45,108 nucleotides of DNA from Candidatus Woesearchaeota archaeon. Its GTDB lineage: Archaea > Nanobdellota > Nanobdellia > Woesearchaeales > JAGVXP01. The translations under genes and the position numbers were made by a program. The DNA lies in assembly GCA_018303725.1 (NCBI GenBank), contig JAGVXP010000055.1:1-45108 (forward strand). The letters run 5' to 3'. How positions within the stretch are numbered: the first letter of the stretch is position 1; each line of letters starts with the position of its first letter. Positions 3,301 through 45,104 of this stretch are shown one piece after another. Under the pieces are notes generated by a model, which worked only from the letters and a program-made list of their open reading frames with translations, ran no database searches and was not told the origin of the DNA.

Positions 3301-3355
3301 AACTTAGAGGTTTATTTTGCAAATATTTAAATATTTAGTGCTAAATGAGAAATTT

Positions 3356-4393
3356 ATGCCATTAACAAAAGAGCAAACAGCCAAGATTAGAGAGGAACTT
3401 GAAAGCTGCAAAAAGCCATTAATATACTTTCATGATGACCCGGATGGTTTGTGCTCTTTTTTATTGTTCTATAAGTTTGTTGGCGATGGCAAAGGGGTTA
3501 TAATAAAAACAACAGCCGAGATGGGGCCAGTATTTGCTAAAAAGATAGAGGAATATGCTCCTGATAAGGTTTTTGTTTTGGATAAAGCAGTTGTAAGCCA
3601 GGGATTCTTTGACAAAGCCGCTGAACTAAAGGCAAAGGTAATTTGGGTTGATCATCATTTTCCTCTGAAAAGGGAGAATGTAAGCTATTTTAATCCTAGG
3701 TTGAATAAGATAGATGATTCCAACTGTGTATCAAGGCTTTGCTATGATGTTGTTAAAGACAATTTATGGATTGCTATGGTTGGTATTTTAGGGGATTGGG
3801 GTTTAGATTTGAAAGATGATTTTATTAAAGAATATCCAGAATTATTGCCAAAAGAGATAAGAGACCCTGCAGAAGCCCTATACACAACAACGTTAGGCAG
3901 ATTAGTAAGGATATTCTCTTTTATTCTAAAGGGCAAAAGCCACGATGCAATGAAATGCGTTAAAATCCTGTCAAGAATAGATGATCCCTATGAGCTATTA
4001 AAAGGGGAGACACCAAGAGCTAAATTTTTGATTAGAAAATATGAGGGAGTTAATGAAGAGTATAAAAAATTGTTAAATGATGCTTTAGACAAAGCAAAAA
4101 CAGATGATAAAACATTAACCTATATCTACAAAGCAGACAGAATGTCTTTAACCTCTGATTTGAGCAATGAATTATTGTATAGATTCCCTAATAAGGTTAT
4201 AATTATTGGAAGGGAGAAATCTGGAGAGGTAAAGCTAAGCTTGAGGTCATCAAAGATTGAATTGCCTAAGAAAATAGAAAAAGCATTAGAAGGCTTAGAT
4301 GGCTATGGCGGAGGCCATGAATATGCCTGCGGAGTTAATGTCAAGGAGAAGGATTTTAAGGTTTTTATTAATAGATTGATAAAAAGTTTATAG
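3356..4393 (+). CDS. DHH-family phosphoesterase (RecJ-like/GAN-like)
   Basis: FHDDPDGLCS, VIWVDHHFP, DGYGGGHEYACG motifs; ORF open from 3317 but ATG at 3356 is more plausible. Confidence 0.85.
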   Translation: MPLTKEQTAKIREELESCKKPLIYFHDDPDGLCSFLLFYKFVGDGKGVIIKTTAEMGPVFAKKIEEYAPDKVFVLDKAVVSQGFFDKAAELKAKVIWVDHHFPLKRENVSYFNPRLNKIDDSNCVSRLCYDVVKDNLWIAMVGILGDWGLDLKDDFIKEYPELLPKEIRDPAEALYTTTLGRLVRIFSFILKGKSHDAMKCVKILSRIDDPYELLKGETPRAKFLIRKYEGVNEEYKKLLNDALDKAKTDDKTLTYIYKADRMSLTSDLSNELLYRFPNKVIIIGREKSGEVKLSLRSSKIELPKKIEKALEGLDGYGGGHEYACGVNVKEKDFKVFINRLIKSL

Positions 4394-4395
4394 TT

Positions 4396-4584
4396 ATTGG
4401 AAATTTAACTAAAATGTCAGAAATTTTCCACCAATTTTGGATTGGTGGCTGAAAGTCAACTTTCTCGCTTTTGGAAAATTTCTGAGCATGCTCAAGAACC
4501 ACCCGATGCTGTAAATGATAGTCACATTACACCATCCTGTGAATGGTGGTTCTTGACAATTCCCTATTTGGTTAAATTTCCAAT
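4396..4584 (+). repeat. Nested double-hairpin intergenic element, copy A
   Basis: Outer 14-bp inverted repeat ATTGGAAATTTAAC/GTTAAATTTCCAAT; core 4415-4558 TGTCAGAAATTTTCC..GGAAAATTTCTGAGCATGCTCAAGAACCACC..GGTGGTTCTTGACA; homologous to 15260-15463 in reverse orientation. Confidence 0.85.
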
Positions 4585-4672: not shown

Positions 4673-4789
4673 GCGCTGGTGGTCTAATGGCATGACTTCA
4701 GCCTTCCATCGCTGTTTAAATCGCGAAGCGATTTATGGCGTTACCAAAGAGGCAAGCTGACTATCCGGGTTCAAATCCCGGCCGGCGCA
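4673..4789 (+). tRNA. tRNA-Gly(TCC) with anticodon-loop intron (about 46 nt, 4709-4754)
   Basis: Acceptor GCGCTGG/CCGGCGC, anticodon arm TCAGC-CTTCCA[intron]A-GCTGA, T arm CCGGG-TTCAAAT-CCCGG; intron contains AAATCGC-GAA-GCGATTT hairpin. Confidence 0.88.
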
Positions 4790-12164: not shown

Positions 12165-12280
12165 TAGCGGAGGTTGGATTTGAACCAACGACCTATGGGT
12201 TTCTTACAGAAGTTATGAGCCCATCGGGCACTCCTGATTGGACTGCTAGGTATTAACCCATGCATCTGCCCTACTCCGCT
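12165..12280 (-). tRNA. tRNA-Met(CAT) with D-loop insertion and short anticodon-loop intron
   Basis: Reverse strand AGCGGAG..CTCCGCT acceptor, GGGC/GCCC D stem with 38-nt loop, ATGGG-CTCATAA+13 nt-CCCAT, T arm GTTGG-TTCAAAT-CCAAC. Confidence 0.82.
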
Positions 12281-15259: not shown

Positions 15260-15463
15260 TGTCAAGAACCACCCATCAAAAATCGAAGATTTTTGACTGT
15301 GCTCAGAAATCCTTTGGATTTCCGACACATCACAGATGGGTGGAATGTTACTAACATTTACCACATCAGGGTGGTTCTTGAGCATGCTCAGAAATTTTCC
15401 ATGCTGCACTAGGCTTTGTGGCTTTCCAGCCACCGATTGTAAATCGGTGGAAAATTTCTGACA
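15260..15463 (-). repeat. Nested double-hairpin intergenic element, copy B (reverse orientation, larger)
   Basis: Reverse complement aligns to 4415-4558: TGTCAGAAATTTTCCACCGATT..AATCGGTGG..GGAAAATTTCTGAGCATGCTCAAGAACCACC..GGTGGTTCTTGACA, with about 50 bp extra internal sequence. Confidence 0.87.
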
Positions 15464-45010: not shown

Positions 45011-45104
45011 GGCATACGTGAAAAAGTCTAGCCAAAAAAGAAATAAGATTGTGTAAGATTATCCGCGCAGCAACTTCCGAGTGCTGCGTTCGGAAATTGT
45101 TACT
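45011..45104 (-). repeat. Right copy of the 94-bp perfect inverted terminal repeat
   Basis: Exact reverse complement of 1-94; 4 further bases (tctt) follow. Confidence 0.97.

Follow-up and report, generated by a model that had tools for sequence, protein, structure and literature searches.

The IS200/IS605 member ISDra2 inserts 3′ of 5′-TTGAT on the lagging strand, without duplication of the target (PMC8612924, PMC2806898). The terminal-only PATEs of Haloquadratum have no transposase and can be 52 bp long (PMC3119063). The SMR-A of Haloquadratum walsbyi are about 110 bp in length, carry terminal inverted repeats and insert into palindromes of other elements; they cause no target duplication, have no transposase relative, and their mobilisation is unknown (PMC3119063). 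Tagged REPs have an unpaired CGTC/TGTC tag, a stem of 8-9 bp, a loop of 4-5 nt and a 3-nt tail, mostly CCA. They are found as head-head dimers, including RPE-4/RPE-6 of Rickettsia and dRS3 of Neisseria, some copies lie inside genes, some families are inserted in palindromes, and they lack a dedicated transposase (PMC3733652).

The stretch of woesearchaeal DNA analyzed here (the window) is 45,108 nt long. Its copy A is a complete double-hairpin mobile element of 144 nt on the plus strand (4415-4558), bounded by TGTCA and TGACA. The left hairpin, H1 (4415-4488), consists of TG, TCAGAAATTTTCC ... GGAAAATTTCTGA, a bulged G and CA, and the right hairpin, H2 (4489-4558), of TG, a bulged C, TCAAGAACCACC ... 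GGTGGTTCTTGA and CA. The H1 assignment is based on the pairs 1-84, 2-83, 3-81 and following, which RNAalifold reported with covariation. The two stems (4417-4429/4473-4485 and 4492-4503/4545-4556) are joined by the palindrome TGAGCATGCTCA at 4483-4494. When 4396-4584 was folded as RNA, the energy was −70 kcal/mol, compared with −36.9 kcal/mol for shuffled sequences (z = −8.3); folding as DNA gave z = −5.7 against shuffles. The final 6 nt of H2, 5′-TTGACA, mimic the target. Directly 5′ of copy A is the target hexamer CTAAAA (4409-4414, plus strand); the family consensus is 5′-TTRAYA, and A-rich variants are common.

A preliminary description of this DNA had given the stems, palindrome and bounds of copy A correctly, and had reported a second copy. 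Copy B is indeed present on the minus strand (15260-15463; 204 nt, nested insert included). The same description had placed copy A within an outer 14-bp inverted repeat beginning 3 nt past the stop of the DHH ORF (3317-4393). The repeat exists at that distance, with its left arm at 4396-4409 and its right arm at 4571-4584 (plus strand), but it is absent from other copies and is not part of the element. As the limits of the family are TGTC ... GACA, the repeat is a pre-existing host palindrome, and the element fell into its loop.

A smaller double hairpin with the linker GCACAG is nested in H2 of copy B (15274-15327, minus strand). Members of this smaller family (linker GCACAG or GCACAT) were also nested in main-element loops at L011, L046 and L040. 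Further linker types (GTGTTT..., GCAAATTAG...) were seen at L020, L024, L040, L041 and L045 in the same genome and at L252 and L278 in a relative, G111; a third mini family, GTGCA...CTGCACTAA..., is found among these seven loci. It seems that several related hairpin elements occur together and nest in each other. A different dispersed repeat, with the sequence GTTCGTAATA/AGYAAA, had repeatedly received the double-hairpin element at one spot (L061, L142, L147, L182), and empty versions of it were present at L252, L256 and L278. The contig itself has a perfect 94-nt inverted repeat at its two ends (1-94 and 45011-45104), which is either an artefact of assembly ends or a repeat at which the contig broke off.

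The unit common to the family is a pair of hairpins that abut, TG-TCAGAAA...TTTCTGA-(G)-CA followed by TG-(C)-TCAAGAA...TTCTTGA-CA. A non-redundant set of 142 copies ranged from 50 to 311 nt, the minimal form being a pair of short hairpins such as TGTCAGAAATCCAAAGGATTTCTGAGCATGCTCAAAAACCTTTGGTTTTTGACA. The ends are imperfect terminal inverted repeats, TGTCARRAA, with TG...CA termini. A consensus fold was obtained from 27 diverse long copies aligned with MAFFT without structure. In this fold H1 abuts H2. Each hairpin is closed by 5′-TG and CA-3′, and its inner side carries a single bulged base, in H1 a G that follows TTTCTGA and in H2 a C that precedes TCAAGAA. Within this alignment, 97.6% of cells paired, and 13 of 34 pairs had changes on both sides. 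The structure was derived from the alignment's own consensus, so that shuffled alignments and slid partners are the relevant controls. Cells with changes on both sides numbered 72, against 22 in the shuffled alignment, and the covariation score was 0.268; shuffles scored 0.128 and slid partners no higher than 0.073. Rfam at the gathering threshold found only tRNAs in the whole window, and the element matched no Rfam family. We rejected a box C/D sRNA, suggested by UGAUG/CUGA in some copies: these motifs are missing from many variants and are located in stems. The tRNA genes at 4673-4789 and 12165-12280 of the window were found by Rfam but not by ARAGORN; in the gene at 4673, an intron-like insert contains the hairpin AAATCGCGAAGCGATTT.

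A search of the element's own 1.3 Mb genome revealed about 40 dispersed copies, most of which begin at TGTCAG or a few nucleotides upstream and end in GACA. Among 196 genomes sampled from the order, 53 contained the junction TTTCTGAGCATGCTCARRAA with up to one mismatch allowed; the reversed control pattern gave 0 matches. Relatives had between 0 and 27 strand-matches each, and the own genome had 77, since many copies match on both strands owing to the palindromic core. In a scan of species genomes, the matches listed included more than 100 stretches, almost all from Candidatus Woesearchaeota; complete elements were also among those from a few MAGs labelled Pacearchaeota, Aenigmatarchaeota or Nanoarchaeota. 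Matches in Clostridiales, Acetobacterium and Methanomassiliicoccaceae had no hairpin partner arms and were dismissed as chance. Our literature searches, incomplete in coverage, found no account of this family in DPANN archaea.

The six bases 5′ of the element were exactly 5′-TTRAYA in 32 of the 142 copies (0.3 expected) and contained the looser 5′-TNAHA in 86 (4.0 expected). The right flank of these copies had no such target motif. The last six bases of the element, TTGACA, are the same motif as the target; this end was a selection criterion of the 142-copy set and is also required for H2 to pair with its 5′ foot. When the last bases of the left flank were compared with the first bases of the right flank in the 142 copies, the lengths of their overlaps were distributed as in shuffled pairs. 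The overlaps are therefore those of chance, and there is no target duplication.

Empty sites were found by comparison with relatives. For example, beside tRNA-His G052 has TTTAAATA-element-ATTTACTGAG where G111, a different species of the same genus, has TTTAAATA-ATTTACTGAG, the empty site being TTTAAATA/ATTTACT. Empty counterparts of equal length were also found for the putative PpsA, uS13 and PIN-domain genes, the L170 gene and two host repeats; where the partner was more diverged, the evidence is an alignment that crosses the junction without a gap. All seven comparisons, a check that had been suggested from the start, showed empty, undoubled sites, and the insertion is thus precise and without duplication. 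A 961-nt insertion in G052 (L265 1471-2431, G052:C5) was rejected as a transposon with these ends, being a gene-containing indel relative to G111. This indel also carries one copy of the element.

The orientation of the copies depends on their position relative to orc1. Archaeal origins usually adjoin orc1. GC skew was masked by the coding strand, and skew corrected by third positions did not place the origin, so we used the position of the orc1 gene. In G111:C6, where Orc1/Cdc6 is at 275 kb, nine copies to the left were on the minus strand and five to the right on the plus strand. Four G111 copies with a palindromic junction were oriented by their arms; two agreed and two disagreed, and with all of them counted 16 of 18 copies followed the flip. 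In seven other genomes, 8 copies lay on contigs carrying orc1, and 7 of them agreed. With the origin assumed at orc1, the strand reading 5′-TTRAYA/TGTC...TTGACA is the lagging-strand template, on which the top strand of 23 of 26 pooled copies lay (p = 9e-5), with 3 copies breaking the rule. Neighbouring copies were co-oriented in 32 of 42 cases (19 of 27 without G111, p = 0.05). A 20-kb region near orc1 in G111 (G111:C6:285001-305000, L246) has a low G+C content (26.6%) and overlapping long open frames.

Copies of 54, 108, 114, 144 or 147 nt lie inside genes and leave the frame intact. The interrupted genes encode GatA, GatD, GatE, CarA and TrxR, named from alignments with PDB homologues, as well as a YgiQ-like radical-SAM protein, uS13 and the N-terminus of PpsA. 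The identities of these last three, and of the PIN gene, are our reading of the sequences and are putative. In GatA the gap in the alignment with the PDB homologue was 18 amino acids (54 nt), and in GatD about 36 amino acids (108 nt), in each case the length of the element. In GatE, TrxR and CarA the insert also sits at an alignment gap, which in CarA includes other extra sequence.

By these traits the family works like the IS605-derived PATEs and resembles REP dimers and SMRs, and it is a proven member of none. Like PATEs and the IS200/IS605 elements IS608 and ISDra2, it has a hairpin at each end, inserts 3′ of a short target without duplication, and shows lagging-strand orientation. The palindromes near both ends of PATEs have their counterpart in the terminal covarying hairpins, and 5′-TTRAYA on the left is matched by a putative right cleavage site, TTGACA, inside the 3′ end. 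In contrast to PATEs, which have no terminal inverted repeats, the family has TGTCARRAA at both ends, and no tnpA-bearing relative with the same ends was seen among the sampled loci. The hairpins of IS608 and ISDra2 are subterminal, whereas here the ends lie at the feet of terminal, abutting hairpins with TG/CA feet. With REP head-head dimers the family shares TGTC at the outer ends, two hairpins, intragenic copies and the lack of an associated transposase, and with some REP families, as with SMRs, insertion into palindromes. However, it is archaeal, the TC of TGTC pairs with GA and so does not form an unpaired tag, the stems are often 10-20 bp with structured loops, and the tail is GAGCA rather than CCA. 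Compared by traits and not by HqIRS42/43/55 sequence, it is like SMRs in its terminal inverted repeats, its lack of duplication and its lack of a transposase relative; it differs in host lineage and in having a demonstrated target motif and replication bias. The preliminary description had offered a rough analogy with the double-hairpin elements (DHEs) of fungal mitochondria. These, and the repetitive hairpin-forming elements of sponge mitochondria, are adjacent hairpins, dispersed and mobile. The shape does fit, but the resemblance is one of shape only and closer prokaryotic counterparts exist; both are organellar, and we know of no relation between them and the woesearchaeal family.

The initial proposal of a double-hairpin family, made to depend on further copies or covariation, has held, both having been found: the genome has about 40 copies and many relatives carry the element. 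These copies and relatives, together with the empty sites, also bear out the suggestion of a non-autonomous mobile element. Hairpin ends, a one-sided target, a 3′ end that mimics it, absence of duplication and lagging-strand bias together match the "peel and paste" mode of IS200/IS605. The element is probably mobilised as single-stranded DNA by an HUH-type enzyme acting in trans, and has no transposase of its own. The top strand, exposed in single-stranded form at the replication fork as lagging-strand template, would fold into the abutting H1 on the left and H2 on the right. Two cuts would be made by an HUH-type tyrosine transposase provided in trans, one 3′ of the flanking target (TTRAYA/TG) and the other 3′ of the TTGACA with which the element itself ends. 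The excised strand would then insert 3′ of another TTRAYA-like site, without target duplication.

A gene-bearing version would have matching arms on either side of a gene; at the 228 junctions examined, no such copy was seen within 4 kb among the arms scored, which excluded very short ones. Y1 transposases were rejected as carriers of the same ends, as their ends differ at the 30 + 20 loci scanned for ends and hairpins. The own genome has only a broken Y1 fragment. Y1 was present in 29 of 53 carriers and 44 of 143 non-carriers (p = 0.003), a weak enrichment. Even with an E cutoff of 10, no Y1_Tnp was detected in some carriers, among them G184 (99% complete), G186 and G052; the association between Y1 and carriers is thus weak. 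Counting against a Y1 enzyme in trans are the lack of a gene-bearing relative at these junctions, the different ends of the resident Y1 elements inspected and the failure to detect Y1 in several near-complete carriers. Further points against the proposed mechanism are the position of the ends at the hairpin feet, unlike IS608 and ISDra2, and the three copies that break the strand rule. The enzyme may have been lost after a burst, or may be a different one.

Alternatively, an enzyme other than Y1 might move the element as a single-stranded hairpin; it could be an undescribed HUH or replication endonuclease, the Rep of a plasmid or virus, or a tyrosine recombinase that acts on folded strands. 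This would involve the same cis-anatomy and would agree with the failure to detect Y1_Tnp in several near-complete carriers. Archaeal non-HUH replication endonucleases that act at hairpins are emerging (PMC13107129). We nevertheless consider this explanation unlikely: no candidate gene was found, and the TTRAYA/TTGACA logic and the lagging-strand bias fit IS200/IS605 best. If the element were a conventional MITE on whose imperfect inverted repeats, TGTCARRAA, a DDE transposase acts, those repeats and the TG...CA termini would be accounted for. This reading is highly improbable, given the lack of target-site duplication in 142 copies and in the empty sites, the one-sided target motif and the dependence of orientation on replication. 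Just as improbable is retro-insertion, in which a structured RNA is reverse-transcribed into TTRAYA sites on the lagging strand. The covarying structure speaks for it, and orientation bias is known for some retroelements, but the target-mimicking TTGACA end and the hairpin-only forms of 50-54 nt fit recognition of hairpin ends better, and no Rfam family was matched at the gathering threshold. Least likely of all is a host-functional intergenic structure spread by ordinary duplication, the terminator, insulator or processed RNA of the preliminary description, which the position of copy A just 3′ of a gene, where it could end transcription, might suggest, but which is not needed and leaves unexplained the precise in-frame insertions in conserved housekeeping genes, the exact empty sites, the nesting in other copies, the patchy distribution and the replication-strand bias.

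Returning to mobilisation as single-stranded DNA, we suggest tentatively that the family might represent an undescribed system, widespread in Woesearchaeales, in which an enzyme other than a recognisable Y1/IS200 transposase mobilises minimal double hairpins of 50-54 nt and the element also supplies essential proteins with in-frame peptide insertions. No transposase is linked to orphan palindromic repeats such as CGTC REPs, RPEs and SMRs, and for this reason the question of how they spread has stayed unanswered. Here one family combines exact boundaries, a target motif, empty sites, strand bias and a covarying fold, so that the single-strand model is directly testable with short oligonucleotides. 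For the host, the insertions mean that RPE-like in-frame DNA insertions reshape core archaeal proteins, namely the GatA/D/E amidotransferases, a predicted ribosomal protein and TrxR.
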